Source: SAR324 cluster bacterium
Lineage (GTDB): Bacteria; SAR324; NAC60-12
Assembly (NCBI GenBank): GCA_028282505.1
Contig: JANQHV010000031.1
Location: 1-36,767, forward strand
Direction: 5' to 3'
DNA: 36,767 nt
The translations under genes were made by a program, and so were the position numbers. Below, one piece after another: positions 4,607 to 33,424 of this stretch. How positions within the stretch are numbered: position 1 is the stretch's first letter; each line of letters starts with the position of its first letter. Under the pieces are notes generated by a model. It was given only the letters and a program-made list of their open reading frames with translations, was not told the DNA's origin and searched no databases.

Positions 4607-4650
4607 CAGGAGCAAATGGAAAATTCCATCTCCACTGCATAAATTACCGC

Positions 4651-5355: not shown

Positions 5356-5384
5356 TATTATGAAGTCGGAAATTGAAATATTGT

Positions 5385-5490
5385 GTCATTCCGGGCTTGA
5401 CTCAGAATCTAGAAGCTTACACACGTTTCCTGGATAGCGGACGGGCTGGCGTATCAAGCGAGTCCAGCATGATAAATTCTTTTTACGAGA
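5385..5490. repeat. Possible degenerate dispersed intergenic repeat (GTCATTCCGGGCTTGACTCAGAATC type)
   Basis: gtcattccgggcttgactcagaatctagaag...cctggatagcggacgggctggcgtatcaagcgagtccagcatgat resembles the common 'CHSGLDPESR' intergenic repeat; only one copy seen in the window. Confidence 0.35.
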
Positions 5491-5536
5491 TATTGATTTC
5501 ATAACAAGAATTTTAAATTCAGATTCACATGAATAA

Positions 5537-6772: not shown

Positions 6773-7208
6773 TCATCCTCTCCAATTGGTATCTCAGATA
6801 CGATTCTTACAACAAGTCCTTGGCTTGTTTCTCCATTGATAAATATGAGATATCGGGCTATTATTGAGTGCAAATTATTTTCTAATCATACAACCAATCT
6901 CAAAAACTGAAATCTTTATCATATACATGACCTTTCCAGCACAAGAAAACAAGTAAAATTCTATAAATTTCATAGGCAGAATCTAGATAGATTTCGTTCT
7001 CATTTCAAAGATCGTGTCATTCATTTAAGAAAAACTGCAATGATTTCAATACCATGATTCAGTCAGTGAAGCTTTACGAGTTCTGGTATCTATTTATGGA
7101 AAGGTAAGAAAAAAGACGGGCTGAGTAAATCAATGAATCGGAGCGTTAAAATATAAACCCATAGTATAATTTTTTTATTTTCAATAGCTTAACAAAAAAG
7201 GAAACAAC

Positions 7209-7925
7209 ATGATTGTCATACCAGCAATCGACTTAAAAAATGGAAAATGCGTTCGGTTACTCCAGGGAGAAGCCAGTCAGGAAACAATCTACTCCGATGA
7301 TCCCGCTGCTATGGCTCAATCCTTCGAAAGTGCCGGAGCACAACGCTTACACTTGGTTGACCTGGATGGTGCGTTTGCCGGAAAGACAGCAAATTTGAAC
7401 AGTATTCAAAACATCGTTCGTGCCATTAATATTCCTATCGAATTGGGAGGAGGAATTCGTAATCTGGATGATATCAAACGGATGCTGGATTTAGGCATCT
7501 CCTCTGTGATTGTAGGAACAATGGCAGTGAAAGAACCAAAGACTCTAGAAACTGCTTTAAAAGAGTACCCGGGGGAGCAAATTATCCTGGGAGTTGATTC
7601 ACGGCGTGGAAAAGTGGCTGTACAAGGCTGGGAAGAACAAACCGAAATCAATGATGTAGAATTTGGCAAGCACTGGAAAAATCAAGGAGTGGAGCGTATC
7701 ATTTTTACAGACATTGCCCGGGATGGGATGCTAACCGGCCCGAATCTGGAAGCACTCCGTCACTTTGCAGCAGGCACTCAATTAAAAATCACAGCGTCTG
7801 GTGGTGTCTCTGCTAAAGAAGATATTGATAATCTGAAAAATTTAGAAATACCTGAAATCGACCATGTTATTGTCGGTAAAGCCATCTATGAAGGCAAAGT
7901 CCAATTGAATGAAATTTTACCATAG
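7209..7925 (+). CDS. hisA: HisA (phosphoribosylformimino-AICAR ribotide isomerase)
   Basis: MIVIPAIDLKNGKCVRLLQG, LVDLDGAFAG, ELGGGIRN, FTDIARDGMLTGPN, ASGGVS. Confidence 0.95.
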   Translation: MIVIPAIDLKNGKCVRLLQGEASQETIYSDDPAAMAQSFESAGAQRLHLVDLDGAFAGKTANLNSIQNIVRAINIPIELGGGIRNLDDIKRMLDLGISSVIVGTMAVKEPKTLETALKEYPGEQIILGVDSRRGKVAVQGWEEQTEINDVEFGKHWKNQGVERIIFTDIARDGMLTGPNLEALRHFAAGTQLKITASGGVSAKEDIDNLKNLEIPEIDHVIVGKAIYEGKVQLNEILP

Positions 7926-8063
7926 TCTTTAAGCCCCAACAGTTCAGGAAATTTTATTGGACACAGATGACCATGATTAAGAAGGATTTGGACAAAACAT
8001 TACCTGGACAGCTATAATTGTAGAATCCATTTAATCGGCGTTAATCTAAGTCCCGAAATTAAT

Positions 8064-8762
8064 ATGACAACATCCATCGATTTGTATTATTGGCCAACTC
8101 CCAATGGTCATAAAATCACCATTTTACTGGAAGAATTGGAAATACCGTATCGTGTGATCCCAGTCAACATTGGCAAAGGCGATCAATTCAAACCTGACTT
8201 TCTCAAAATCGCTCCCAACAATCGCATGCCTGCTATTGTTGATCATGCACCACAAGATGGAGGAGAGTCGATTAGTATTTTTGAGTCAGCAGCCATCATG
8301 CAGTATCTGGCAGAAAAGCATGATCGATTTCTTCCGAGAGAGACCAGAAAAAAAACAGAAACCATGCAATGGTTGTTCTGGCAGATGGGAGGACTAGGAC
8401 CCATGGCAGGACAAGCTCATCACTTCCGCCAATATGCCCCAGAGAAGATCGAATATGCCATTACACGCTACACCAATGAAGTGAATCGACTTTATGGTGT
8501 CATGAACAAACGTTTGGGAGATCGGGATTTTCTTGCTGGAGATTATTCCATTGCAGACATGGCCTCCTGGCCATGGGTAGTCCCTTACGAACGCCAGGGA
8601 CAAGACCTAAACGAATTTCCAAATTTGAAACGCTGGTTCGAATCCATCCAAGCCAGACCTGCCGTTGAAAAAGCGATGAACGTAGGAAAGGAATATCGGC
8701 AAAAACCAGAAGATATGAATGATGAATCACGCAAAATACTGTTCGGTCAACGGTCTAAATAA
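8064..8762 (+). CDS. Glutathione S-transferase family protein (YghU/YfcG-like)
   Basis: DLYYWPTPNGHKITILLEELEIPY N-terminal thioredoxin-like domain; ESAAIMQYLAEK; C-terminal GST helices. Confidence 0.85.
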   Translation: MTTSIDLYYWPTPNGHKITILLEELEIPYRVIPVNIGKGDQFKPDFLKIAPNNRMPAIVDHAPQDGGESISIFESAAIMQYLAEKHDRFLPRETRKKTETMQWLFWQMGGLGPMAGQAHHFRQYAPEKIEYAITRYTNEVNRLYGVMNKRLGDRDFLAGDYSIADMASWPWVVPYERQGQDLNEFPNLKRWFESIQARPAVEKAMNVGKEYRQKPEDMNDESRKILFGQRSK

Positions 8763-8787
8763 CCTCTGTCGCGAAATTAATCGTAGG

Positions 8788-9117
8788 CTACATATTCAGA
8801 CCAGGAATATTCATCCCGGCAAGCCCACCGAGTTGCTTGCCCAACTCTTCCTGGACCACCTTCTGGCTTTGGCGAATTCCCTCATTGACAGCTGATAAAA
8901 TCAAATCTTGCAGGGTTTCAATATCTTCTGGATCAACAACTTCTGGATCAATTTGAATAGAAACAGCTTCCTGTTTGCCATTGAAAGTCATTTTCACCAT
9001 CTCTCCCCCCACAGAAACATCGATTTTCTTCTTTGCTAGTTCTTCCTGCTTGGCTTGCATATTTTGAGAGACTTCCTGTGCTTTTTTTAATAAATCTCCC
9101 ATTGGACCATCAAACAT
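8788..9117 (-). CDS. ebfC: YbaB/EbfC nucleoid-associated protein
   Basis: GDLLKKAQEVSQNMQAKQEELAKKKIDVSVGGEMVKMTFNGKQEAVSIQIDPE; downstream of dnaX, the classical arrangement. Confidence 0.95.
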   Translation of the reverse strand: MFDGPMGDLLKKAQEVSQNMQAKQEELAKKKIDVSVGGEMVKMTFNGKQEAVSIQIDPEVVDPEDIETLQDLILSAVNEGIRQSQKVVQEELGKQLGGLAGMNIPGLNM

Positions 9118-9139
9118 AATTTTCCTTTTGGCAAAATGA

Positions 9140-10981
9140 TTACAATTCTGGTTCCTGGATTCGAATATCCGTAATTTTACTACCAGGAAAGGTTTTTAAA
9201 ATCATTTGGGTGGTCGCGTCGTCTCGAGCAACCCCACGCTTTCGCTCCCGTTCTGCATCCAATAACTGCTGCTGTTTTTCGGCCAGTGTTAAGGACATGG
9301 AAGACAATGGGGAGTCCTGAATCAGGATCTCCATCGAAGATTGAAAAAAATCCTGTGCCAATCCATGCAAAGATTTCTGCTGCTCTCCCGCTAACATTTT
9401 AGCAAACTGAATTTCACGAAATCCTATCTGGATTTTCTGCTCATTTATTTCCAATACCACAGCATGTTTTAAAACACCACCTATTCTAGGAGAAGACTGT
9501 TGAACATAAGCCACAAAATTTTCCCATTTCCTTGGTGGAAACAGTTCCTTCTCATTTTTCTCAATCAATCTGGCAGGAGAGGAAGGCTGACTTTCTGTCT
9601 GTTCCAACAAAGTTTCCTGTGCTGATGGTGGGGATTCTGGTGCTTTGGTAACTACTTCCTTTGGGGATTCTGGTGCTTTGGTAACTGGTTTCGTTACCGG
9701 CTGAGGTGCTGTTTTTTTAAATACAGGAGCCCTCTCGGATACAATACTGGGAGACACCGATTGCTTTTGATAAGCTGGAGGGGAAGCTTTGGCAACCTGG
9801 GGTGTTCCTCCTTGACTTCCTCCACTGCCTTGCAAATTCTGCACTTGATTTAATAAATCAGGAATACCAACCAGGGGTTGCACCGAGGTAATTTGCATCA
9901 ACGCCATTTCAAAACAAATTTGAGCATGAGTGCTGCGCTTTATACGTTCTTCCAATTCCAATAAAATATGAAATACCTGCTGCAACTCATCCATTGTGAC
10001 AGCCGTACTGATTGTCTGATACTGTGCCAATTCCTCTTGAGAGATGTCCTGAAATAGTGTGGGTGGTACTTTTCCTGAACTATCCATCAATGTGCGAACC
10101 AGAGAAATCGTTTTAACCGACTGCATTATTTCTGAAAGAATATCTTGGTAATCATGACCATGCTGTTGCATCGCATAAAAAGCCTCCATGGCTTCTGCAG
10201 GTTTCTTCTGAAGCAGGGCCTTCAATAATCGAAAACGGACTTGAGTATCCATCATTCCCAGAATTTTTGCGACTTCCTCATCGCTTGCAGAAACCCCCGC
10301 ATAACTGATCACTTGATCAATGGCAGTCAAAGAATCACGCATTCCACCCACAGCATGCTTTGCAATCATTTCCAGTGCTTTCCGGGATAACTCGATTTTT
10401 TCATCCTGTGTGACCTTCTCTAAATAATCCACTATCTTGCCAAGTGGAATACGGACAAAATCATAGCGTTGGCAACGAGAGATGATGGTCTGCGGAATTT
10501 TATGAGGGTCGGTAGTGGCGAGAATAAATTTCACATGAGGAGGCGGTTCTTCCAATGTCTTCAAGAGAGCATTGAATGATTCCAATGTCAGCATGTGTGC
10601 TTCGTCAATAATATATACCTTGTATCGACAATTGGCGGGTGCATACTTGACATTCTCCCGTAACTCCCGAATGTTATCAATACCCCTGTTGGAGGCAGCA
10701 TCAATTTCAAACACATCGGGAGAAGCATTGTCTGTAATCTCTGCACAATTCTGACACTCATTACAAGGGTTAGCTTGCTGAGGATTGAGACAATTGATAG
10801 CTTTCGTCAATATCCGTGCCGCACTGGTCTTTCCTACTCCACGAGACCCCGTGAACAAAAAAGCATGACTGACTCGATTGGCAATGATCGCATTTTTGAG
10901 TATCTGGGCACTGGTCTCTTGTCCAATCAGATCATCAAATCGGGTAGGTCTTAGTTTGCGGGCAAGAACAACATACGACAT
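9140..10981 (-). CDS. dnaX: DNA polymerase III subunit gamma/tau
   Basis: MSYVVLARKLRPTRFDDLIGQE..FTGSRGVGKTSAARILTKAINC.. four Cys zinc module, IDEAHMLT; true start taken at MSYVV (10981), not the track start at 11131, which runs through the SRP RNA. Confidence 0.95.
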   Translation of the reverse strand: MSYVVLARKLRPTRFDDLIGQETSAQILKNAIIANRVSHAFLFTGSRGVGKTSAARILTKAINCLNPQQANPCNECQNCAEITDNASPDVFEIDAASNRGIDNIRELRENVKYAPANCRYKVYIIDEAHMLTLESFNALLKTLEEPPPHVKFILATTDPHKIPQTIISRCQRYDFVRIPLGKIVDYLEKVTQDEKIELSRKALEMIAKHAVGGMRDSLTAIDQVISYAGVSASDEEVAKILGMMDTQVRFRLLKALLQKKPAEAMEAFYAMQQHGHDYQDILSEIMQSVKTISLVRTLMDSSGKVPPTLFQDISQEELAQYQTISTAVTMDELQQVFHILLELEERIKRSTHAQICFEMALMQITSVQPLVGIPDLLNQVQNLQGSGGSQGGTPQVAKASPPAYQKQSVSPSIVSERAPVFKKTAPQPVTKPVTKAPESPKEVVTKAPESPPSAQETLLEQTESQPSSPARLIEKNEKELFPPRKWENFVAYVQQSSPRIGGVLKHAVVLEINEQKIQIGFREIQFAKMLAGEQQKSLHGLAQDFFQSSMEILIQDSPLSSMSLTLAEKQQQLLDAERERKRGVARDDATTQMILKTFPGSKITDIRIQEPEL

Positions 10982-11000
10982 AGAGACCACTATCTCAAAT

Positions 11001-11096
11001 GGGTGGCTGAGTTTCGCGGCACATCTCCAGAGTCTTAGTGCTGCTTCCGTTAGGACCTGACACGGTTCGAAACTTTCAATTGCGCGAAACCCAACC
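11001..11096 (-). ncRNA. ffs: Bacterial small SRP RNA (4.5S RNA)
   Basis: Reverse strand GGTTGGGTTTCGCG...GTGTCAGGTCCTAACGGAAGCAGCACTAAG...CGCGAAACTCAGCCACCC: conserved GUCAGGUCC/GGAAGCAGC apical domain plus pairing GGGTTTCGCG/CGCGAAACTC ends. Confidence 0.92.
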
Positions 11097-11159
11097 ATAT
11101 CTTGGGTAATCAGTTCCAAGATAGCAAACAAGATTTTCTATTCTTGGATTTACTGATTT

Positions 11160-11249
<90 letters not shown>

Positions 11250-11499
11250 TACTCAAAACGACAAAGATCCTCTTTTGAGGGCGGTATGAGTTTTTAATAA
11301 TGCTAAACTATTTATGATATATGACCAGCCTCACGATTTCAAGCCGTTTTCCAATCCATTTCTCATAATTTGTGCAATGCTCCCTTAAGAAAAGGAAAGA
11401 ATCCTTCTGAAAATCTTTTATTTTGAATCGTTTAATGATAATTTTAGTGTCCTTCAATTCTTTTACAAATTATCCACCTTTTTAGATATAGGTCTATCT

Positions 11500-21335: not shown

Positions 21336-21605
21336 ATGACTATTTTATTCAGCATCTTCTTATTGATTATTACTATCATTGTCATTACTTATCCTCTTTA
21401 TTTTCAGAAAATAACAAAACACATTTCTGAAGAAACAACATCATCCAGTTTTAATGAGCAAGATGCCTTGTTATCTGCTTTAACCGACTTGGAGGAAGAA
21501 TTTCAATTAGGACGTTTGTCGGAAGCTGATTATCAGCATTTAAAATTACATTTCCAAAAACGCTATTTGCATGCAAAACAGATTGCAGAATCAGAAAACA
21601 CATGA
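21336..21605 (+). CDS. Small membrane-anchored protein (CcmH/CcmI-like short domain)
   Basis: N-terminal TM, then ALLSALTDLEEEFQLGRLSEADYQHLKLHFQKRYL. Confidence 0.55.
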   Translation: MTILFSIFLLIITIIVITYPLYFQKITKHISEETTSSSFNEQDALLSALTDLEEEFQLGRLSEADYQHLKLHFQKRYLHAKQIAESENT

Positions 21606-21759
21606 TGCTATCCCAGCAACTGATAGTCGTAGCATCATTGCCTTTAATTTTAAACCATTCTCTGACTAATAAACTAAAGAGGGAAGCCTAAAGCAATCCC
21701 CAAAACACTATGTTTTATAAGCTATCCAGGATATTCCATTTTTTCAAAAAATAGCCTTA

Positions 21760-21778
21760 GTGTCCATATAGGTGTCCA
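21760..21778 (+). repeat. Putative att site, left copy (GTGTCCATATAGGTGTCCA)
   Basis: Exact 19-bp match to 33262-33280; 12 bp beyond the integrase stop. Confidence 0.8.
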
Positions 21779-21790
21779 CCGTTCCTCGAA

Positions 21791-23008
21791 CTACCCCATT
21801 TTTGAACCAGAATTCCCATTTTGTTGATTGAGCATTTTTTTGACTTCTTCTGGGTCAAATCCTGCTGCAATGAGTCGATCTTCAATTTCTTGTGGATTGG
21901 ACTTTTCTTCACCTTTCCATTTCATACCTGCCACATCCTCTTCATCTACCAGATTGTACCGGAAAAACATGCTCATGGTTTTGTGACCAGATGCTTTCAT
22001 GATCGTGCTGTAATCATTACCCGCTTTGCGTAAATTGGTGATAGCGCAATGACGAAAATCATGGAAGACAAAATCTTTGATTCCTGCCTTCTTTTTTGCC
22101 GTAGTAAAGGCGTCTGTAAAACTGTTAAATGGTTTACCGTTTTTCAAAAAGACCCTCCCACCTTTGAAGCGACTGGGAAGATGCAACAAAGTTTCTCTGA
22201 CTCTAGGGTGCAGTGGAATAGCACGGCCCGATTTTTTGCCCTTGGTGCGCTTTGCTGCCAGGCGTATGAATCCAGGATTACCTTTCAAGTCAACCTCTGA
22301 CCACACAAGCTTGATAATTTCATCTTTTCGCATGGGTTCATAAAAGGCAGTTATCAATACGGGTTTAAGGTGGATTGGAGAGCAATCAAGCAAGCATTCA
22401 AATTCCACGTCACTCAATACCCTTTCCCGGACATTGTCTTCCTTTAGCATGGCAATTTTTGCTACAGGATTACTTTCGATTTTTCCATAGAAGAGGGCGC
22501 GGTTCAACAAGTGTTTGAGTGCAGCAACCTCCCTATTAATGGTTGCAGGTGTGGTGAGTTGGTTTTTGCGTCTGGCTGATGGTTCCTGACTACGCAGGGA
22601 GCGGTATTCATTCACACATTCGATATCAATTTGACTGACGGTACGATTGCTCCCTAAAATTCGGAGGATGTTGGATAATTGGGCTTTCTTGCCTTGATAG
22701 GAATCCAGTTCCTTGACTTCAGGTAATTCAAGATACCATTCTTTCAATTGCCCAAGAGTGACCTTCACATTTTTATTTTTATCAATTTCTCTTTCTTCAA
22801 CGATGTTGGTCTGCACTTTCCGTAATCGATTTTCAGCAGCTACTTTGCTTGGTCCAATGCGCTCACGCTTTCTCTTACCATTCACACGGTAATCAATCCA
22901 GTAGGTTTTGTGTGGGACCTTGATGATATTATATCCGCACTTCGAACACAGTTTATTCTTGGTACTGTTGCGTGTGTTACACTTGGGGCATTCTGATAGC
23001 AGGGCCAT
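21791..23008 (-). CDS. Tyrosine recombinase/integrase with N-terminal zinc-ribbon
   Basis: CPKCNTRNSTKNKLCSKCG; catalytic residues in YEPMRKDEI, HDFRHCAI, SGHKTMSMFFRY. Confidence 0.93.
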   Translation of the reverse strand: MALLSECPKCNTRNSTKNKLCSKCGYNIIKVPHKTYWIDYRVNGKRKRERIGPSKVAAENRLRKVQTNIVEEREIDKNKNVKVTLGQLKEWYLELPEVKELDSYQGKKAQLSNILRILGSNRTVSQIDIECVNEYRSLRSQEPSARRKNQLTTPATINREVAALKHLLNRALFYGKIESNPVAKIAMLKEDNVRERVLSDVEFECLLDCSPIHLKPVLITAFYEPMRKDEIIKLVWSEVDLKGNPGFIRLAAKRTKGKKSGRAIPLHPRVRETLLHLPSRFKGGRVFLKNGKPFNSFTDAFTTAKKKAGIKDFVFHDFRHCAITNLRKAGNDYSTIMKASGHKTMSMFFRYNLVDEEDVAGMKWKGEEKSNPQEIEDRLIAAGFDPEEVKKMLNQQNGNSGSKMG

Positions 23009-23067
23009 TATTCCTCCTTTGCGCTGTTGCGGATGTTACACTTGGGGCATTCTGATAGTAAAACCAT
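23008..23067 (-). CDS. 19-aa leader ORF duplicating the integrase N-terminus
   Basis: Reverse strand MVLLSECPKCNIRNSAKEE*, with TAATG overlap into the integrase start; integrase begins MALLSECPKCNTRNSTK. Confidence 0.5.
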   Translation of the reverse strand: MVLLSECPKCNIRNSAKEE

Positions 23068-23069
23068 AG

Positions 23070-23792
23070 CTAACTCCAGACATCAAATATTTTTTGGATT
23101 TGATTTTGTGCGTCATTCAATATTCCTTGAATTGATTCTTTGTGACCTGAGCTACTGTCTAGCTCACTACTTTGAAAAATATATTTATGATAAAGATTAG
23201 CTATTAATACCTGGAAATCTTTTTCATGTGGCCCTTTCGTAAACTGGTGTTTTCGCCTAAACTCTCTCAAAATAAATTCTTCAAAAATTTCCTTGTGATG
23301 GGTTTCAATGGATTCCTTGTTTCTGAATAAAAGTACTTTATCCTTTTCCTCATCTGTGAGTTTTTCAGGCTCATCAGTAGCCTTCTTTATCAAGTCATAA
23401 GTTATTCCTTCATTCTCTCTAAAAATGTTTCTTCGATCAAGAACCAGTTTGTACAAACTGGTTAAGAATCCATCCTCAAGAAAGCGGTTTTGTTCATCTG
23501 TGAATAAGTTATGAAAGCCTTCTATGACGGCTTGCTCTAGTTGAGATAATTTCTTTGTTGTGATCTTTTTTGGATCTTTCCCTTCAAGTATCCATTCCGA
23601 ATTGTACCCATACGTAGCCTCAAATGCTAAAGCAAGCGCCTTGGTGATTTTGCCCGTTCCTTTAAATACTGCTGAAATTCCACCTGAAGACATATCCAGA
23701 TCATCACCAATTGACTTCTGAGACAACCCTAATTCACTCTGTAATTGTCGAAGTCTTGCTCTTACTTCAGAATAATCCATGTATTTCTCCAT
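23070..23792 (-). CDS. Phage repressor-like XRE/CI-type HTH protein
   Basis: VRARLRQLQSELGLSQKSIGDDLDMSSGGISAVFKGTGKITKALALAFEATYGYNSEWILEG. Confidence 0.8.
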   Translation of the reverse strand: MEKYMDYSEVRARLRQLQSELGLSQKSIGDDLDMSSGGISAVFKGTGKITKALALAFEATYGYNSEWILEGKDPKKITTKKLSQLEQAVIEGFHNLFTDEQNRFLEDGFLTSLYKLVLDRRNIFRENEGITYDLIKKATDEPEKLTDEEKDKVLLFRNKESIETHHKEIFEEFILREFRRKHQFTKGPHEKDFQVLIANLYHKYIFQSSELDSSSGHKESIQGILNDAQNQIQKIFDVWS

Positions 23793-23913
23793 TTTATCGA
23801 TAAATGAAATTTTTATTGACTATATTCGATAATCGAGTTAGTTTTTAATTTCGATTAAAAAACTAAATTAAAATATTACTCATTTATCGAACTATCAAGA
23901 GAAAAGGAATTTT
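23793..23913. promoter_or_regulatory. Divergent promoter/operator region between repressor and Cro-like gene
   Basis: CATTTATCGA present in opposite orientations near both gene starts (tttatcgataaatg; catttatcgaac), plus ATTCGATAATCGA between; very AT-rich. Confidence 0.6.
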
Positions 23914-24156
23914 ATGAAAAAAGTTAGAGAACGATGTGATGTTATTCATGACTATATTTTGGGAGAATTGAAAAAACGTGGAATGACATTGAAGGATGTG
24001 GCTAAAGCTACTGGAAAGGGCCAAACGACCGTGCGTTCATGTACCTTTGGAATTACAGAAACCAAGGAAATTAGAGACTATATTATCGGTGTTATTGGGG
24101 AAGATCCTTGGTTGAAATTCCCTCCTGTTGAATATCCTTACCCCACGGGTTGCTAA
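23914..24156 (+). CDS. Small Cro/Ner-like DNA-binding protein
   Basis: DYILGELKKRGMTLKDVAKATGKGQTTVRSCTFG; position divergent from repressor. Confidence 0.55.
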   Translation: MKKVRERCDVIHDYILGELKKRGMTLKDVAKATGKGQTTVRSCTFGITETKEIRDYIIGVIGEDPWLKFPPVEYPYPTGC

Positions 24157-24184
24157 TTCGACTAATGAAACTCAAGGAGGAAGA

Positions 24185-24355
24185 ATGATTAAGGAAAAAT
24201 TTTATACGGTTGATGAATTCGTTAAAATGGTACCCGTCAAAACCCCAACCGTCCGGGCCTGGATTCATCAGGGGAAATTGCCGGTTGTGCGGTTTGGGAG
24301 GAAGGTTTTCATTAAACAGTCAGTGGTTGAAAAAATTTTAGATGAGGGATTGTAA
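24185..24355 (+). CDS. AlpA/MerR-like helix-turn-helix protein (excisionase/regulator type)
   Basis: MIKEKFYTVDEFVKMVPVKTPTVRAWIHQGKLPVVRFGRKVFIKQSVVEKIL; AAGGAGGA RBS. Confidence 0.75.
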   Translation: MIKEKFYTVDEFVKMVPVKTPTVRAWIHQGKLPVVRFGRKVFIKQSVVEKILDEGL

Positions 24356-24361
24356 GTTGAT

Positions 24362-25702
24362 ATGGAACGATCAAAAAAAACACAAATAACAGTCAACCCT
24401 GAAGTTTTGGAACAGGTTGTGGAGCAGGAAGCTTCTACCATTAATACCGATCCAGAGCCATTTGACCAAGTGGGCTGGCCCACGCTTGATGGAAAAGCTT
24501 TGAATGGTTTTGCTGGTAGGTTTGTTGATTTCGCAAAACAGAATAATGAGGGAGACCCCGCCGCTATTTTATTCACATTCCTGGTTCGTTTCAGCATTGA
24601 GGTTGGCAGGTCTCCACACCTCATGGTTGGAGATGCTACCCATCATACGAATGAATATGTTGTCATTGTCGGGAATTCGTCAAAGGCCCGTAAAGGCACA
24701 TCGGCCAAACCTGTTGAACGTCTGTTTGAGAATCTTGAAAATATAGCACGCCTTTCTCCAGGGCCATTATCCAGTGGAGAAGGGTTGATTTATGCCGTTC
24801 GTGATGAAATTCAATCATGGGTGGTTGACCGGAAAAATGGGGATGGTGAATGGAAAACGACCGATCCAGGTATTGACGATAAAAGACTGTTCGTGATGTC
24901 TGAAGAATTTGGCTCTGTGTTGGATGCGGCAAGGCGCGAGGGTAATTCAATTTCTGCCATCATACGCACCCTGTATGATACTGGAAACGTTGATCCACTA
25001 ACCAAAAGCTCTAAGATCAAAACGACCGGTACCCACTTTGGGTATGCGGCCCATATTACCCAACATGAACTGCACCAAAAATTGAGCGAAAGCGACTCGT
25101 TGAACGGCTTTGGTAACCGTAACCTTTGGGTATGTGCCAGGCGCTCGCAAATTTTACCAATGCCTAAGCCAATGAGCTCCAGACAATTAGAAAGGTTTCA
25201 AGGTGAATTGAAAAATATCCTTGCTTTTGCCAAAGATGTTGAGGGGATGGAGTGGAGTTCAGATGCGCGTGAATTATGGTGGGAAAAATATGAGGGTTTG
25301 ACCAAAGAGATTGATGGTCTATACGGCACCCTCATCGCACGTTCAGAGGCTCATGCCGTCAGATTGGCAATGATTTATGCCCTGCTGGATAAATCGAAAA
25401 TGATTACAAAACCTCACTTAGAAGCGGCTTTAGCAGCCATTCAATATTCAAATGATAGTGCCAAATTTATCTTTGATGAGCATGAAAACGATCCTATTTC
25501 AGAAAAAATCATGAATGCTCTGCAAAGTAACAAGGACGGGTTAACCGCAACTCAAATTTCAGAAGTGTTCGGTAGGAATTTGGAAAGCAAAGTGATCCAA
25601 TCCCATATCAAAAAATTGATTTCTTCTGGTAAAATCGATGCAGAGAAAAAACGAGGGGCATATCAAAGGAAGCCTACTACTTATTATAAGATACGAATTT
25701 AA
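24362..25702 (+). CDS. DUF3987-type replication/helicase-like protein
   Basis: VVIVGNSSKARKGTSAKPVERLFE degenerate P-loop; LSSGEGLIYAVRD; RLFVMSEEFGSVLDAARREGNSISAIIRTLYD; GFGNRNLWVCARRS. Confidence 0.75.
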   Translation: MERSKKTQITVNPEVLEQVVEQEASTINTDPEPFDQVGWPTLDGKALNGFAGRFVDFAKQNNEGDPAAILFTFLVRFSIEVGRSPHLMVGDATHHTNEYVVIVGNSSKARKGTSAKPVERLFENLENIARLSPGPLSSGEGLIYAVRDEIQSWVVDRKNGDGEWKTTDPGIDDKRLFVMSEEFGSVLDAARREGNSISAIIRTLYDTGNVDPLTKSSKIKTTGTHFGYAAHITQHELHQKLSESDSLNGFGNRNLWVCARRSQILPMPKPMSSRQLERFQGELKNILAFAKDVEGMEWSSDARELWWEKYEGLTKEIDGLYGTLIARSEAHAVRLAMIYALLDKSKMITKPHLEAALAAIQYSNDSAKFIFDEHENDPISEKIMNALQSNKDGLTATQISEVFGRNLESKVIQSHIKKLISSGKIDAEKKRGAYQRKPTTYYKIRI

Positions 25703-26078
25703 CGAATTTGACGAGTTTAATAATTTTAATGATTTATATCAATGATTTATATCAATGATTTATATCAATAAAAAGCTCGTAATAAGCTTCGAAATTAATA
25801 CGAATTTAATATGATTTACTAACTTGGGTAAATAAAATTCGTGATAATTCGTAACGGGAAGCGAATTTAATAAAGGCATCCAGCACAGTAAAATCAGGGG
25901 ATGAAGCTTTAATTTCGTATAATTCGTTAAATTCGTAAGGAAATAAAAATACACATTTAAGAACCAAAATAATAAATTCGTATTAAATGCGTTTCAAATT
26001 ACGAATTTAATAAAGGCATCAATCCCAGTAAAATCAAGGGATAAAGCTTTAGTTTCGTATAATTCGTTAAATTCGTAA
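25693..26078. repeat. Origin-like repeat region: 9-mers, three perfect 13-mers, two 77-bp direct repeats
   Basis: ACGAATTTA/ACGAATTTG/ACGAGTTTA at 25693-25719; AATGATTTATATC x3 at 25728-25766; 77-bp copies at 25862-25938 and 26002-26078 ending TTTCGTATAATTCGTTAAATTCGTAA. Confidence 0.85.
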
Positions 26079-26091
26079 AAACATAAAAAAT

Positions 26092-27302
26092 ATGCTTTTA
26101 AACTTACTGGCACAAGATAACATCATTCCAAAACAGGCAACCGCTAATGAATACCATTCATCATGCCCTGGTTGTGGAGGGAAAGATAGATTTTGTGTTT
26201 TCTTGGATTCGGGCCGTTATTGGTGTAGGCAATGTGGAAAACAAGGGGATACCATTCAATACCTCAGAAACTTTAGAGGAATGTCATTCCAGGAGGCCGC
26301 CAATGTTGCAGGAAAAGAAGTTTCTTGCCCCCCCAATCAACTCTATATAAGCCAAAAAAAACTGAGTGGGTGCCAAAGGAGTGCTCTATCTTACCAAACC
26401 AGTGGATGGAGAATGCAGGAATGTTGGTTGACTGGGCGAAGAAAAACCTTTGGAACAATCCCGAATGGTTGACCTGGTTAAAAGAGAAAAAAGGGCTGTC
26501 TGAGGAAACAATTCAAAGAAACGAGCTTGGTTATATCCCTCAAAACATTTGGCGAGATAGGACGGAATGGGGCATGGGTAATGGAAAAAAACTATGGTTT
26601 CCCCAAAGCTTGGTTCTTCCTTATCGAAACAATGGACGGGTTGTCCGGGTTCGTTTTCGCCGGCCCTCTGGTGAACCTCGTTATGTCCCCCTGTCAGGGT
26701 CATGCATGGCACCTGGGATTTATGGAACCAATCGAGACACGTTGATCATTGTTGAAAGTGATCTGGATGCCATGCTGTTAGAGCAGGAGGGGAGGGACCT
26801 TATTTCATCCATCAGCATGGGTAATGCTACAAACAGACCGGATGAGGAAACAGCAAAGGTTATCAAGGCAGCAAAGCGCGTGTTTATCTCATTGGATTCT
26901 GATAGCGCAGGAATCAAGGAGTCCTGGCAGTGGTGGCTTGATAAATTCCGCAATTCTCTGAGAGTCCCAATAGTGGGAGGCAAAGATCCTTCTGAAGCTT
27001 GGGGAAATGGGCTCGATCTGAATGAATGGATTCACGCGGGCCTGGGATTGTTTGAACCTGCCCCTGTCAAATCTTTAACGGAGAAACAAGAATCCGTGCC
27101 CACTCAAACAAACCATCATGATCTATCAATTGAATTGAGAGGATTCTTTCAACGATCCATCATAGATGGATCTGGATTGCATGAGTGTAAATCCAAAGAA
27201 CAGGCGGAGGAGTATTTACAGATAATCGACCCAGTCCTTCCCAAAGACATGGGAGTGTGTATTGTTCGAGATAAAGAAATAAACATCTATTCTTGGGAAT
27301 AG
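26092..27302 (+). CDS. CHC2 zinc finger-Toprim primase, split into two frames at a C7 run (26327-26334 region)
   Basis: Frame 1: CPGCGGKDRF..YWCRQCGKQGDTIQYLRNFRGMSFQEAA (26092-26472); next frame: Toprim IIVESDLDAMLL..VFISLDSDSAGIKES (26325-27302); homology switches frame at ttgCCCCCCCaatc. Confidence 0.8.
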
Positions 27303-27322
27303 AGGTAAACTAAAAAGGAAAT

Positions 27323-27754
27323 ATGAGTACCATTGAAGCTTTACATGAAAGGAACTCTTCATTATCTGCCAGACCAATCATAGAAATCAAAACCTACATC
27401 CACGCGCCAGAGGTAATGTTTTTTGATTTCCCTGATGAGTTGGAACAACAATTACGATCCAACGGTTACAACCCGTACCATGATCAACGTTTTGGGTTGA
27501 AAGCCCTGGTGATTCGGCCCACCACAAAAATAAACTGGATCCACACCGAGTGGCAAGGATTCCAGTTTGTCCAATTCAATCCAGAGCTTGGGGTGGAGGA
27601 TCGCCACAGGTTTATGTGTCCCCATTGCCCAGGCTCTCCCGTGACAGAGTCTAATGGAAATTTCTGCATGACATGTTTCAGATATTATGGGGAATTGAGC
27701 CCTGGAGATCAGCCTCAAGATGAGGATGGCTGGTTGGATAGTAATTTGTTTTGA
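27323..27754 (+). CDS. Hypothetical zinc-ribbon protein following the primase
   Basis: CPHC...CMTC four-cysteine motif in the C-terminal half; directly downstream of the primase. Confidence 0.55.
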   Translation: MSTIEALHERNSSLSARPIIEIKTYIHAPEVMFFDFPDELEQQLRSNGYNPYHDQRFGLKALVIRPTTKINWIHTEWQGFQFVQFNPELGVEDRHRFMCPHCPGSPVTESNGNFCMTCFRYYGELSPGDQPQDEDGWLDSNLF

Positions 27755-27835
27755 ATCTCTCGTTTAAACACCCATCTGTGTACAATAATTCCACCGGAAC
27801 TGATGCCAGTGGTTTAATCAAAATTGAAAGTAACT

Positions 27836-28501
27836 ATGATTAAAATCGAATCCAATATTAAAGATTTGCAAAAGCGCTTGAAAAACCTTGAAAAACAAAA
27901 GAATTTTGCACTTCGCAATGCCCTCAATGCTACAGCCTTTGCTGCCCAAAAGGAGGCCAAAAAACAGCTTTCAAAAAAATTGGATAGGCCCACCCCGTTT
28001 ACAGTTAAAGGAGTGCAGGTTGAGAGAGCGACGAAACAAAATTTACAGGCTGTTGTTAAAATCCCATCAAATCGAAATTACATGAAATATCAAATTGAAG
28101 GAGGCATTCGACGTCCAAAACGGTGGTCGGTGGGGATAACGACCCCCGCGCCATCTCAACCGCTCAATCAATATGGCAATGTACCCAACAAAAGGTTTTC
28201 TTCATTGTCTAAAAGGCGGGATGTATTTGTTGGAACCCCAAAGGGCCATCGAGGTAAGAGACGAGGGGTTTATCAAAGAGTGGAGCCGACTAACGCCCCT
28301 AGAAAAAAAATCAGAGGACGGGGAAACACAAAAAAGAGGCATATGGCTTTGAGAAAATGGTTGAATCTGATTCATAGTGCCAAATATCAACAACGTTTTC
28401 CATTTGGAAAAATCGTCCAAACGGTAGTCAAAGAACAGTTTCCCAAGGAATTTGATAAGGCCCTCAAACACGCTTTCAAAACTTCTAATGTTTTTAGGTA
28501 A
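27836..28501 (+). CDS. Phage minor tail protein Z-like protein
   Basis: MIKIESNIKDLQKRLKNLEKQKNFALRNALNATAFAAQKEAKKQLSKKLDRPTPFTVKGVQVERATKQNLQAVVKI..MKYQIEGGIRRPKR: the 'RPTP[FY]T..AtKqnL..yqIeGG.R..KR' layout of GPZ-like tail proteins. Confidence 0.65.
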   Translation: MIKIESNIKDLQKRLKNLEKQKNFALRNALNATAFAAQKEAKKQLSKKLDRPTPFTVKGVQVERATKQNLQAVVKIPSNRNYMKYQIEGGIRRPKRWSVGITTPAPSQPLNQYGNVPNKRFSSLSKRRDVFVGTPKGHRGKRRGVYQRVEPTNAPRKKIRGRGNTKKRHMALRKWLNLIHSAKYQQRFPFGKIVQTVVKEQFPKEFDKALKHAFKTSNVFR

Positions 28502-28536
28502 AGTTGAATTGTTAAATTTAACGCCACCTGTCCCAT

Positions 28537-28687
28537 ACGGATAGCATCTGTTCTCCTTAAACACACTCTCATCTAAAATAAGGGCCTACACCAGCCTTTT
28601 TAATCAAACGGATAGCCCCATCTCGACTTTCTTTAAACAGGCTCTCATCTACAATGAAAGCCTATACCAATCAATTCTTTTTATCAA
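28537..28687. repeat. Degenerate tandem repeat, two units of about 71 and 80 bp
   Basis: ACGGATAGC..CTTAAACA..CTCTCATCTA.AAT.A..GCCTA.ACCA..C..TTTTTATCAA present twice in tandem. Confidence 0.55.
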
Positions 28688-28781
28688 GCAACTGCTTGTC
28701 TCATTACCAAGTCAACAGAAACCATTGCCACAACCTCCATCAAAAAATCATTGCAGTTGATCTAGTGTGTATTTCTATATC

Positions 28782-28897
28782 CTTACGAATTTAACGAATT
28801 ATACGAAATTAAAGCTTCATCCCTTGATTTTACTGGGCTAGAACCTGATTTAAGATTCGTAATTTCAAACGCATTTAATACGAATTTATTACTTTGG
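28782..28897 (-). repeat. Inverted copy of the origin-like repeat
   Basis: Reverse complement aligns gap-free over 116 bp to 25963-26078, about 14 mismatches counted by eye. Confidence 0.85.
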
Positions 28898-29411
28898 TGC
28901 TTAATGGAACATTACTCATAAACCAAAAGCTTGTTGAATGGGCCAAGACTAAATGTTCCGAAGAGTACGAAGCCTTGGTATTTTATTTTCCACCAAAATC
29001 TGGAATGAATATGAAATACGATGGTTATAAATGGCTTAGATGTTGATACGTTTTTTAATTATCGAACGCTTTATATTTGCCCCATTAGGGTTATTTTTTT
29101 CGTGGTAGGTTCTTCCAGAGCCTTGCTAATATGGGGTTAATTTGAGCGCACCATTCTCCTAGCGCCAGGAAATTTTTAAACCATTTTCATTTCCTTTTTT
29201 GGATCTTTACACATTACTCTATATTATGGATAGGTTTTACTATTGGAATCCTGAATATTTCAGATAGGATTGCTATCCAGGACTGGATTTTCAAGGCTGG
29301 AAAAAGGAGTCAAGTTTTTGTGGATTTTTCAGCAATTTGATTTTGCACACTGCAAAAAATGCAGAAAAAAACGGAAAAAAGCGAAATCGTGTTAAATAAA
29401 AACGAAATCAG

Positions 29412-29654
29412 ATGTCATTTGAGCCATATTTTAAAAACTATCAAACTCTTATGAATAAAGGGGTAGAGAGGAATGAAGGCTTTCAAAAAAATGAAATTGA
29501 TGCCGAAAGGGAAGAAAGTGCATGGAGTTTTTTGGTCCCGGACCGGGGAAATTTCAAGAAGTCCGCGCGCGTGTTGGAATCAATTAAGAATTCTCCGCGC
29601 GCGTTTGTATCTAACAGCTTCTGGCTTTACCATGGGAAATCAATTCAAATTTAA
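29412..29654 (+). CDS. Hypothetical small protein
   Basis: Open frame of 80 aa only; no family recognised; contains unusual GC-rich repeats. Confidence 0.25.
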   Translation: MSFEPYFKNYQTLMNKGVERNEGFQKNEIDAEREESAWSFLVPDRGNFKKSARVLESIKNSPRAFVSNSFWLYHGKSIQI

Positions 29655-30064
29655 TCTTCAGACTCCCCAAGCCTTTGCTTCAACTCTTTAATAGTTTGTT
29701 TATTCTCATCATAAGATTTTTCCAACAAATTTTGTGTCCTGCAACGAGTATTCATTTCCTTAATTTTAGCATCTTGCACTTTTATTTCATGGCGTTGGGC
29801 TTCTATGATTTCCACCAATTGATCCAAACAGTAATCAAAATTGTCACGCAGATTACCCAAGACTTCAGCTTTCTCTTCCAGGATGAAAAGACTTCCAGCA
29901 TCTGAATCACTCTGCCCAAATTTTTTCGAATATTCTAAAGTATCTTTAGCAGAAAGGATTTGAACTTTTATCACTACAAGTTTGTTTAAGTTTTCATTGA
30001 ATTCATTGACTGTTTTTTGATAGTCAAAAGACATGGTATTTCTCCTTGATTGGAGATTAACCAC
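29651..30064 (-). CDS. Hypothetical coiled-coil protein (127-137 aa), start GTG 30064 or ATG 30034
   Basis: Charged heptad-rich sequence; both starts have SD sequences (AGGAGGT before GTG; AAGGAGA before ATG). Confidence 0.6.
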   Translation of the reverse strand: MVNLQSRRNTMSFDYQKTVNEFNENLNKLVVIKVQILSAKDTLEYSKKFGQSDSDAGSLFILEEKAEVLGNLRDNFDYCLDQLVEIIEAQRHEIKVQDAKIKEMNTRCRTQNLLEKSYDENKQTIKELKQRLGESED

Positions 30065-30087
30065 CGCCTACCTCCTGACTCTTCCCA

Positions 30088-30185
30088 TAAAAAAAGGGTG
30101 AGAGATCAGAAGGTAAACGGTGTGCAAGCACCATAAGGCAAGGTTAGCGGCCTTGCCGTAGTTCACCCTCTGACCTTTCACCCTT
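30088..30185 (-). ncRNA. Candidate C4-like antisense RNA / structured leader ending in T7
   Basis: 25-bp outer stem (30094-30118 with 30161-30185, three A.C mismatches) enclosing GGCAAGG-CCGCTAA-CCTTGCC and GGTG-CTTGCA-CACC hairpins, followed by TTTTTTT on the minus strand. Confidence 0.6.
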
Positions 30186-30532
30186 CTTTCTCTACCCTGG
30201 CCTGCTAAAGCACGAATCTTTCTTGCATAAGATTCTCAAGATAATCAAAAAGTGTAAATGGATCAGAAAGTATAATAATCCATTTTACCTTTTTGTCATG
30301 GGGATGCAATAGAATTTTCACATAAAATATTTGATCTGTCTATGGGGAGGGACTACTCATTTTTTCAGGGATCTGCATTTTATTTATAGGGGATGAGGTA
30401 CCTATTTTATCAGGGAAAGGTGAAAAGCTGGCTCTTGGCACTGGGTGAATTGAAAGAACTCCAGTCAAAAGGAATACTTGATAATGGGGGGACTGGGCCA
30501 GTATACCTTCGTGAGTCAAAATGGATAATGAT

Positions 30533-30635
30533 TCTTCACTTCTTCACCACTTCTTCACTATAGGTGAAGGGGGGGGGTAAGCCCTTATATTTACTGCCAT
30601 TGAAGGGCATTTCTTCACTTCTTCACCATTTTACT
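30533..30635. repeat. CTTCTTCAC iteron cluster around a G9 tract
   Basis: TTCTTCACTTCTTCACCA occurs twice with an extra CTTCTTCAC, separated by GGTGAAGGGGGGGGGTAAGCCCTT..AAGGGC. Confidence 0.55.
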
Positions 30636-30655
30636 AAAAAACAGTGTGTGTAAAG

Positions 30656-30859
30656 TTACTCAGTGCGTTTTGATTCCAGTAGTTGAATGATTGAGGATTT
30701 TGGGATTAAATGCATGCCTGCTGGCTGGAAGCTAACTAAACGTCCCTCATCAATCCATCGCTGAATAGTGCTTGTGGATCTATTGAAAAACTTAGCAGCT
30801 TCTCTTTTCCGAAAAAATCGCTTGGGATTGTCTTTTAATTCCTGAATCAGTTCTTCCAT
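30656..30859 (-). CDS. Small helix-turn-helix protein (MerR/AlpA-like)
   Basis: FFRKREAAKFFNRSTSTIQRWIDEGRLVSFQPAGMHLIPKSSI. Confidence 0.7.
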   Translation of the reverse strand: MEELIQELKDNPKRFFRKREAAKFFNRSTSTIQRWIDEGRLVSFQPAGMHLIPKSSIIQLLESKRTE

Positions 30860-30943
30860 TTCAAACTTCCCGAAAATATCTTTTCCAACACACGCACGCA
30901 GACTTGTGAAATTCTCTCAATTATTTCTTGGTGTTTTCAGCAA

Positions 30944-31420
30944 TCATTCTGAGTAATTCTGCTTTTCATTGGCAAGCTTCAAAGCCTTATTGTACCTTTT
31001 GTTAGTAATTCCTTCATTATTTGCAATCATCAAATCCAGTGCGTCTTTGACCGAAGAAATGAGCTTCATATCTTTTGCCAACAAGATCACAGTAATGGCG
31101 CTAATTGGCTCAAGTCCGTATTTTAGGGCTTTATTCCACCCTTTTTGATCATCAATGATGACTGTCTTAATATTGAGTTCAACGGCTAGACTGATGGCTT
31201 CCCTTTCCCCTGATCCGAGACTTTGAAACAGGGTTGAATGTACAGATTCCACTTTGACGAAAGATGTTTCAAGAAATTTGATAATTTCTTTATCCCTGCA
31301 TTCGTCTTTGACTCCTTGAGGGATGATGAGTTTTTCAAAAATTTGGGGGAGTGAATGAAGGATACCACTTTTTTGAAGTTTGACCAGTGAAGAAGTGTCA
31401 CAGACAACAATTGGATTCAT
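30944..31420 (-). CDS. PIN-domain (DUF3368-type) toxin-like protein
   Basis: VVCDTSSLVKLQKSG; LGSGEREAISLAVELNIKTVIIDDQKG. Confidence 0.85.
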   Translation of the reverse strand: MNPIVVCDTSSLVKLQKSGILHSLPQIFEKLIIPQGVKDECRDKEIIKFLETSFVKVESVHSTLFQSLGSGEREAISLAVELNIKTVIIDDQKGWNKALKYGLEPISAITVILLAKDMKLISSVKDALDLMIANNEGITNKRYNKALKLANEKQNYSE

Positions 31421-31421
31421 G

Positions 31422-31697
31422 CTAGGACACTAGGTTTGTTTTGAGTTTTTCGTAGTTCAGTTGCTCGATTTCTGCTAAGTTTTTGGGTAGTTCTCTTGTT
31501 GTGGCAATGCCTCGTTCGTGTAGCCAGTCCATGGCATCCTCGATGTACTGAAAACCCAGAATTTCCTTAACCTCACCTAAACTTAATTCTGCCTTGATAT
31601 AGCCACGAATGATTAAGCCTTCGTTGATTTGTTGCTCAAGTGTGGCTTTATCGTCACTGAAAACCAGCCTGTCGTCTAAAGCAATTTGTATTTGCAT
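31422..31697 (-). CDS. UPF0175-type antitoxin
   Basis: GYIKAELSLGEVKEILGFQYIEDAMDWLHERGI; immediately upstream of the PIN gene. Confidence 0.8.
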   Translation of the reverse strand: MQIQIALDDRLVFSDDKATLEQQINEGLIIRGYIKAELSLGEVKEILGFQYIEDAMDWLHERGIATTRELPKNLAEIEQLNYEKLKTNLVS

Positions 31698-31814
31698 CGC
31701 GTGTGTTTCGTTAATGGTGAAGAACAGGGTTAAAATTTGTTTACAGTATATCGTTTACAGACCTTGATTGCAAGGAAGGGTGGCAAGCTTGAACATCTCC
31801 CGATATTCATATTG

Positions 31815-32693
31815 TCAATTCAAATACATCCCGCTCGACTCTCCCGGCTTTGCGTGAACATAACCACTGGTTGTATTGAGAGAAGCATGACCCAGGGTTT
31901 GCTGGACCAGGTGAATGGGAGCATTGTTATCCAGGGAGTGGCTCGCGTGGGCATGGCGGAACCAATGAGGAGACACATTAGCAGATAATCCTATTCGCTT
32001 TGCCGCAGCCTGCACAATTCTCATCACCTGAGATCGATGTAAGGCCCCTCCTTTTTGTGACCTGAATACATGGCTATCTCTGTCTGAGTCTTTACCAAAA
32101 GTAACAAATTCCTGGTAAAGTGGCGCGGGCAAAGCAATGAATCTTGTTTTTCCACCTTTGCCAAGTACGGTTATTTGGCCCCCATTTTTTCCTTCCTGGA
32201 CATCACACCATTTTAAAGAGCACAGTTCTGAAACTCGAACACCAGAATAGTATAATAGTTTCAGCATAAGTTTGTTTCTCATTTTTGGCTCATTGTCAAT
32301 GATAGATTGAATTGTATCCTCACTGACTATTCGTTCAGCCAAATCATTTTTGACTGTGGGTAGCTTCACAGGTGCTGCTGGATTGAAAGGAAGATAACCA
32401 ATCTTACAGGCAAAAGTGAACAAAGATTTGATACTGGCCAGTTTTCGCATCTGGCTTCTTGGCTTCAGATGGCCCAATGAATCTGAATACTGTTGCACAT
32501 CTCCCAGAGTGATTTGACTCAAACTTTTCCCAGTGAATTCTAAAAAACGTTTCATGTCATTGGTATAACCCTCCTGAGAGGATGGAGCTTTACCATGCAG
32601 CCATAATTCAATCAGCTGCTCATCATTATTTGCTTGTCTGGGAATAACATTGACTGCTTCAGTGTTATTTTTGATGACTACCGCATTTTCCAT
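31815..32693 (-). CDS. XerC/D-like tyrosine recombinase (second recombinase of the element)
   Basis: YYSGVRVSELCSLKW, VLGKGGKTRFIAL, HWFRHAHASHSL, LGHASLNTTSGYVH. Confidence 0.92.
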   Translation of the reverse strand: MENAVVIKNNTEAVNVIPRQANNDEQLIELWLHGKAPSSQEGYTNDMKRFLEFTGKSLSQITLGDVQQYSDSLGHLKPRSQMRKLASIKSLFTFACKIGYLPFNPAAPVKLPTVKNDLAERIVSEDTIQSIIDNEPKMRNKLMLKLLYYSGVRVSELCSLKWCDVQEGKNGGQITVLGKGGKTRFIALPAPLYQEFVTFGKDSDRDSHVFRSQKGGALHRSQVMRIVQAAAKRIGLSANVSPHWFRHAHASHSLDNNAPIHLVQQTLGHASLNTTSGYVHAKPGESSGMYLN

Positions 32694-33064
32694 TGGGGCC
32701 TCTTTTTTAAAATAATGAATACAACAAAATAATTCTTATGTTGCATAATTTATACATTAAATTTTTGGATAAGACAATAGAATTTTTTCTATTTTTAGAG
32801 TTAAAATCAACTTATAAATATTTACTTAGAATCCTTAATTATGCTAGAATTGTAAGATTTTATTTAATGGTCTAATTCTATGGTATAAAAAAGTCAGAAT
32901 CAACTTAATGATTTTTGGTGATTTTCAGTAAACATGCTTATTGGGCTATACGTCAATAATGACTCTTGTAATTCGTGCGAGATATGGGGGTCTAATTCGA
33001 AAAAAAACAGGATGCTAGCTCTTACGGATTAAGGGCTTGATGGTCGTTGAGAAAGAGTGGAAAT

Positions 33065-33235
33065 ATGGCAAGGAGACAAACAGCACCAAAGGAAAAAGTA
33101 AACTATTATATAAGCTCAGAAACCGTCAAAAAATTGAAGAGAATTTCGGAGGAACAGAACGTTACTTTATCATACGCTGTTGAATATATTTTGGAGGATT
33201 TCTTCAGTAAGCCGGGCAGGAAAACAATTCACTGA
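33065..33235 (+). CDS. Small ribbon-helix-helix-like protein
   Basis: MARRQTAPKEKVNYYISSETVKKLKRISEEQNVTLSYAVEYILEDFF. Confidence 0.6.
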   Translation: MARRQTAPKEKVNYYISSETVKKLKRISEEQNVTLSYAVEYILEDFFSKPGRKTIH

Positions 33236-33261
33236 TTCAAAATAAGAGGGGGTCTTTTTAG

Positions 33262-33280
33262 GTGTCCATATAGGTGTCCA
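33262..33280 (+). repeat. Putative att site, right copy (GTGTCCATATAGGTGTCCA)
   Basis: Exact 19-bp match to 21760-21778. Confidence 0.8.
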
Positions 33281-33424
33281 ACAGCACCATAAAATGGTAT
33301 AGTTTCATATAAATTGACATAATTCACATACTGAGTTAATTTGCTGAAATGTAATAAGAAATATCAATAAATAACACTCAGTATAAATCAGTAAAAACCC
33401 TTGTTATAGGACTAATAAACTAAA

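Follow-up and report, generated by a model that had tools for sequence, protein, structure and literature searches.

A possible phage-satellite-like integrative element in a SAR324 bacterium

Which kind of mobile element combines genes for integration, regulation and replication with a single gene for a virion component? The question is raised by an island in the window, the 36,767-bp contig JANQHV010000031.1 of a SAR324 cluster bacterium (assembly GCA_028282505.1; source genome G000, 88% complete). The original prediction saw in this island a possibly undescribed type of satellite that parasitises a helper phage and is bounded by a 19-bp direct repeat. We find that it is a discrete 11.7-kb insertion whose ends lie outside this repeat and that it is probably, with modest confidence, an integrative phage-satellite-like element, perhaps derived from an arm of a cos phage. 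The satellite-like reading is favoured because of the empty site in a related genome, the integration, regulation and replication modules unaccompanied by head or packaging enzymes, and the recurrence of the same left-end gene order at a tRNA gene in another SAR324 family. SAR324 is a common marine group, and a literature search joining SAR324 with phage satellites found nothing.

Ends of the insertion and the 19-bp repeat

An empty site was found in a sister genome of the same genus, G001. The PP2C gene and the small gene that flank the element in the window adjoin each other in G001, G003 and G005, and the region is therefore a true insertion. Homology to G001 extends on the left up to window position 21673 and resumes on the right from 33410, the two parts overlapping by 10 bp in G001. 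The junctions are spanned by an exact 15-bp direct repeat, GACTAATAAACTAAA, at 21664 and 33410, with copies 11,746 bp apart; a repeat of this length was matched in none of 2000 shuffles of the outer strips. At the matching place G001 reads GACTGATAAAAAAAA, just 5' of the ATG. With one copy of the core counted and breakpoints taken against the G001 empty site, the whole inserted element occupies 21664-33409 (11,746 bp).

The 19-bp repeat, GTGTCCATATAGGTGTCCA, is indeed exact at both ends of the predicted island (21760 and 33262; none expected by chance), but it sits 81 bp (left) and 129 bp (right) inward of the true ends. It contains two GTGTCCA heptamers with a 12-bp period and is preceded at the distal end by a degenerate third (Table 1). 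Throughout the phylum it was found at 74 sites in 23 of 52 SAR324 genomes, with no match to a reversed control pattern. In loci L062-L065 and L069 its sequence is exact and it follows shortly after the integrase stop codon; it carries one change in L059, three in L061 and four in L060. In eight loci read, it has a left-integrase relative on one side and a tRNA gene (Arg, Met or Asn) on the other. Distal copies compared (window and L060; n = 2) both continue with an AACAGC-type sequence, and copies on the integrase side continue otherwise. On sequence grounds, the 19-mer is best read as an arm-type site of the integrase, which is the simplest reading. Since it is probably an integrase mark common to many SAR324 islands, the ends first assigned to the element were misplaced.

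We also considered the 19-mer as the att core itself, the outer 15-bp repeat being an older or chance duplication (for example, if the island lay inside a small older insert). The greater length of the 19-mer, its exactness at both ends and the lack of any clear gene in the strips outside it would suit this explanation. It was rejected as most improbable. In the 4.2-kb element L060, a 51-bp tRNA-Met att repeat forms the outer pair and TGACCACCTATATGACCAC, exact and subterminal, the inner one, so that the core-outside and arm-inside geometry is common to L060 and the window element. In the integrase loci read, the 19-mer lies 46-72 bp from the tRNA 3' end rather than at it. Furthermore, an empty site with one 19-bp copy had been anticipated; the empty site exists, but the 19-mer is absent from it and the break falls at the 15-bp core.

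The element's integrase belongs to a lineage with members throughout the SAR324 phylum (about 37-67% identical for longer matches) and, as predicted, ends 12 bp from the left 19-mer. Directly upstream, the start of its gene is partly duplicated (window 22958-23067; 51 bp, 82%, 59 bp apart). In genome G025, locus L101 (1614-6710) has two 19-mer sites 5 kb apart around an HlyD/AcrB efflux pair, with no integrase, and is a possible non-autonomous cargo island. Because arm sites also flank such plain cargo, the integrase type alone does not imply a satellite; the family so serves several kinds of element, only some of them satellite-like. With the 19-bp signature, mobile elements of this integrase type can readily be catalogued, and with the ends corrected, existing ocean reads and viromes can be searched for attP and attB junctions.

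Plain cargo between arm sites raises another explanation, namely that the window element is a non-phage integrative element or genomic island whose replication genes serve a plasmid-like circular phase, with transfer by vesicles, by conjugative helpers or by general transduction and the tail gene as a passenger. Its right half, with a toxin-antitoxin-like pair and a second recombinase, would also fit. However, repressor/Cro, AlpA, DUF3987/primase and tail-completion genes follow one another in operon order as in a phage-type early region, and profile searches matched no relaxase or transfer gene among the open reading frames (ORFs) of the element. We hold this explanation to be improbable.

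Gene content and the case for a satellite-like element

The features of the element are listed in Table 1. The original prediction of a repressor/Cro-like pair, an AlpA-like helix-turn-helix (HTH) protein, a split CHC2-Toprim primase, a repeat-rich origin-like region, a single tail-like gene and a second recombinase held throughout, with the Cro-like member of the pair weakly matched. Profile searches likewise agreed that no terminase, portal or capsid is matched among the element's ORFs.

The anticipated recurrence of the gene order with different flanks was found in L059, at a tRNA-Arg site of genome G050, which belongs to another SAR324 family. There, int, cI, alpA and DUF3987 genes have the same order and orientation as in the window; the integrase is 61% identical, the CI-like homologue matches at E 5e-12, an AlpA follows, and the next protein matches PF13148 at 4e-19. 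The L059 ORFs tested included no recognisable capsid, portal or terminase, and the right end of L059 was not found.

The sole virion gene of the element encodes a 225-aa product that is identified as a tail-completion protein by its further hits to families annotated 'tail completion or Neck1' and by its predicted fold. Its profile gave no match against PDB sequences, and fold matches of the predicted structure were weak; among them, only the SaPI1/80alpha tail-completion protein 9mu2_P was relevant. The closest relative (49%) is on contig C6 of G001, where a TerS-like gene and a GpA terminase follow.

The position of this gene bears on its origin. Genes of phrog_1924 are placed directly upstream of TerS/TerL in phages phiAP1, phi2LM21, phi3LM21 and phiNP, and near-upstream of TerL in 8 of 10 other loci, L039 and L048 being the ones that differ. 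In the linear genome of RcCronus, 66 bp separate the tail gene from the right end and 48 bp separate the left end from the start of TerS; from these distances, the genome end, presumably cos, follows the tail gene. In the window, phage genes stop exactly after the tail gene and no TerS follows. Two imperfect 40-bp direct repeats (80%, 76 bp apart) lie just 3' of it, at 28554-28669, where a packaging signal would be expected.

A further locus, L048 of Methylobacillus (4169-11367), contains a primase, a tape-measure-like gene and a phrog_1924-type tail gene in this order, with no terminase recognised near the tail gene, and is possibly another compact tail-gene element. It was rejected as a second satellite with a lone tail gene; the tape-measure-like gene precedes the tail gene and the ends were not resolved.

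The main rival explanation is an immobile, decayed prophage which kept the int-to-gpZ arm of a temperate cos phage and lost TerS through the tail and lysis genes, with the toxin-antitoxin and recombinase cargo entering. It is serious because the last phage gene is exactly the one that ordinarily borders on the terminase module and because the primase is broken. A comparable phage-type arm is present on the same-genus contig C6 (L025, identical to contig JADGAT010000105), where a related tail gene, TerS and TerL are followed by an end with no portal or capsid, and across the phylum a number of relatives of the integrase are fragmentary or interrupted by stop codons. On the other hand, the int, repressor, AlpA, ATPase and tail genes of the window are all open, the first four in operon order, and the arm sites and cores are intact at either end. 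A comparably compact layout is found at another site in L059, and losing exactly all head and packaging genes while keeping both att ends needs a clean internal deletion. We regard decay as possible but less probable than a satellite-like element.

If the satellite-like reading is right, the integrase would bind the 19-bp arm sites at both ends and recombine the 15-bp core, with AlpA as the excision factor. The CI/Cro-like pair would silence the early operon pending derepression by a helper phage, and the DUF3987-like ATPase and primase would copy the circular form, starting at the repeat block. Packaging into helper phage particles would follow, since the element is devoid of terminase, portal and capsid. 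The tail-completion gene, usually abutting TerS/cos, would point to an origin from that end of a temperate phage, and a packaging signal may lie downstream of it. The arm of this kind on contig C6 of the same genus, with its related tail gene, TerS and TerL, speaks for this reading too.

Several points weigh against this reading. Excision, replication, packaging and helper use are steps that we infer. No GpA terminase or HK97-type capsid was found elsewhere in the 88%-complete source assembly in a search for a resident helper. Cos-like matches after the tail gene, compared with the gpZ-TerS gap of G001 and the ends of RcCronus, were at chance level. In addition, a lone tail gene is the remnant expected of a truncated prophage, the primase frame is broken, and the arm sites bound plain cargo as well.

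A narrower version of the satellite-like reading, in which the tail-completion gene is accompanied by an adjacent ancestral cos-type signal and the satellite belongs to a SAR324-wide family with one integrase lineage and 19-bp arm sites, is doubtful. Helper heads would be recruited through the signal and the element would supply its own tail-completion protein, by which it would influence which particles deliver DNA. Lambda particles without the tail-completion protein look normal and are mostly non-infectious (PMC11099176). The satellite and decayed-prophage readings would meet if the element were a proto-satellite arising from a defective phage, a route of satellite origin discussed in PMC11389934. 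A lone tail-completion gene beside a missing terminase offers a concrete, testable model for the passage from a phage arm to a satellite.

Replication module, leader RNA and right half

The replication protein had been predicted to belong to DUF3987. The ATPase matches PHROG helicase/primase profiles and is 28% identical to a DUF3987-annotated protein of phage P318, but neither PF13148 (DUF3987) nor PF19263 (DUF5906) is matched by the ATPase or the primase parts, unlike in the relatives L059 and L061. The zinc and Toprim frames of the primase overlap at a C7 run (26328-26334). The primase may be frameshifted there, slipping or damaged, with slippage, mutation and assembly error all as candidates. 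Folding downstream of C7 was no better than in shuffles, so no stimulatory structure for a programmed frameshift is seen. The origin-like repeat block and its inverted copy occur nowhere else in the source genome.

A C4-like RNA had also been predicted. The minus strand at 30200-30060 folds as a three-way junction with a terminal U-run (z about -4.3). Alternatively, its 3' arm can pair with leader sequence 5' of the ribosome site belonging to the gene at 29651-30034; this alternative duplex, at -33.5 kcal/mol, is below all 300 shuffles (mean -13.9, minimum -26.1). In the SAR324 genome G046, a homologue of changed sequence retains both structures (alternative duplex -31.3). The leader RNA has C4-like pairing logic, but it is not a member of Rfam C4, which gave no match up to E 5 and E 10, and no other Rfam match was credible. 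Between two SAR324 elements (window 30060-30200, minus strand, and L113 at about 1093-1240), the leader is conserved with compensatory changes, and it may represent a new RNA family. In pattern scans of viral contigs, hits were about as numerous as expected by chance, and no third convincing example emerged.

Further to the right, the PIN/DUF3368-like protein, matching the candidate defence family PDC-S70, is likely toxin or defence cargo, and the UPF0175-like protein is likely an antitoxin, as judged from family similarity. On the G001 contig L025, 3' of TerL (7658-10830), three toxin-antitoxin-like cassettes lie behind an HTH_17 gene, and every cassette closes with a 115-bp direct repeat of the final portion of this gene (80-86% identical); small cassettes seem to have entered a single gene one after another. 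A CRISPR array (10818-11285; repeats of about 37 bp, 6 spacers) lies beside this phage-like block. Spacers of G001 matched neither the element nor any other sequence compared.

Table 1. Features of the element and its immediate neighbours (window coordinates)
Feature	Position	Strand	Evidence or remark
Left neighbour, small gene	21336-21605		downstream of RodZ-like gene
attL, left core repeat GACTAATAAACTAAA	21664-21678	+	exact repeat at homology breakpoint
Integrase-side arm-type site GTGTCCATATAGGTGTCCA	21760-21778	+	two GTGTCCA heptamers, 12-bp period; putative binding
Tyrosine recombinase (integrase), N-terminal zinc ribbon, 405 aa	21791-23008	-	PF00589 6e-19, phrog_1 3e-51
CI-like repressor, 240 aa	23070-23792	-	phrog_8 1e-9; homologue adjoins int in L059
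Inverted repeat, divergent repressor/Cro intergenic region	23825-23891		possible operator, putative function
Cro-like HTH protein, 80 aa	23914-24156	+	HTH_3 and phrog_769, weak
AlpA/excisionase-type HTH_17	24185-24355	+	PF12728 3e-10, phrog_66 6e-8
DUF3987-like replication ATPase, C-terminal winged helix, 446 aa	24362-25702	+	phrog_5311 helicase 2.5e-13
Origin-like repeat block	25692-26089		two 88-bp copies, 90% identical, 140 bp apart, and short repeats
Primase, CHC2-type zinc part	26092-26472	+	PF01807 8e-8
Primase, linker and Toprim part	26325-27302	+	-1 frame; phrog_47 9e-17
Orphan, 143 aa, C-terminal Cys pairs	27323-27754	+	no family match
Tail-completion/minor tail (gpZ-type) protein, 225 aa	27824-28501	+	phrog_1924 1.6e-45
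Inverted copy of repeat block, 133 bp	28772-28904	-	86-87%; 3' of tail gene
Coiled-coil-like gene, downstream of leader RNA	29651-30034	-	ORF with ribosome site; no strong family
C4-like structured leader RNA, alternative downstream pairing	30060-30200	-	z -4.2; other strand -4.4
Second HTH_17 protein	30656-30859	-	PF12728 3e-9; 43% to HTH_17 after TerL in G001 C6
PIN/DUF3368-like protein	30944-31420	-	PDC-S70 2.4e-31; DUF3368 3e-5, below cut-off
UPF0175-like protein	31422-31697	-	PF03683 4e-5, below cut-off
Second recombinase, XerD-like, 292 aa	31815-32693	-	PF00589 3e-31; TIGR02225 7e-51, below equivalog cut-off
Small possible ribbon-helix-helix (RHH) protein	33047-33235	+	weak RHH/DUF6364 matches
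Distal arm-type site, same 19-mer	33262-33280	+	degenerate third heptamer 12 bp before; ACAGC after it, as in L060
attR, right core repeat GACTAATAAACTAAA	33410-33424	+	directly before PP2C start codon
Right neighbour, PP2C gene	starts 33425

Comparison with relatives and known systems

Among relatives in the phylum, L061 combines an integrase and AlpA with a DUF5906/D5-type primase and a terminase-like gene; over the stretch read, neither a portal nor a capsid was recognised. Scans of IMG/VR with single proteins and with pairs gave no close relatives of the ATPase, the tail protein or the integrase. Alignment of integrases yielded distant ones, including the 4.6-kb contig L157 with an integrase (42%) and AlpA.

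Cronusvirus-type and other phages with phrog_1924 genes, such as RcCronus, phi2LM21 and phiAP1, resemble the element in having replication genes, hypothetical genes and a tail-completion gene at the boundary of the terminase module. These phages continue with a full structural module, whereas the element stops after the tail-completion gene and lacks the terminase, portal and capsid by which a functional prophage would be recognised. Its leader RNA shares with C4 antisense RNA the complementarity to the leader of the downstream gene, but does not match the Rfam C4 model.

Tycheposons and VEIMEs are marine integrative elements proposed as satellites. Relatives of the window element recall them in sharing one integrase type, tRNA targets and cargo-bearing forms, a likeness of organisation, while the window's own site is not a tRNA gene. 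Both are named in PMC11389934. As in PICI/SaPI elements, the left end has the order of int, divergent repressor, excisionase/AlpA and primase, but searches of the element revealed neither a packaging redirector of the TerS type nor a gene for capsid size.

P4-like satellites comprise an integrase, an AlpA-type regulator, an ATPase/primase, separated ori and crr repeats, and an RNA regulator. The window element has the integrase and AlpA pair by which such satellites are recognised and a replication ATPase and primase, and its separated repeat blocks recall P4 ori and crr by analogy. It differs in that ATPase and primase are separate genes instead of a fused primase-helicase (alpha), and in the RNA, which does not match Rfam C4. 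No sid-, psu- or delta-type gene was matched among the main ORFs; such genes diverge fast.

The closest layout is that of the phage-inducible chromosomal minimalist island (PICMI), of which PICMI115 is about 6 kb long (PMC10803314). Both are small marine elements with an integrase, AlpA and a DUF3987-type replication protein and with no capsid-remodelling or structural head genes. Marks of PICMIs also include insertion beside fis and the packaging of a concatemer into particles of the helper. The window proteins match the families that define the PICMI integrase (PF00589, 6e-19) and AlpA (PF05930 or PF12728; here PF12728, 3e-10). The window element is larger (11.7 kb), has a separate primase and an ATPase that misses PF13148, and adds the repressor/Cro pair, the tail-completion gene, the structured leader RNA and the second recombinase. 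It is inserted between the small left gene and the PP2C gene, and not beside fis. Membership in PICMI is not claimed, because the window proteins match neither PF13148 nor PF19263 and the site is not fis. A satellite-like element is the best available reading of this locus, while calling it undescribed was too strong in view of the layout; at most, the element works like a PICMI.

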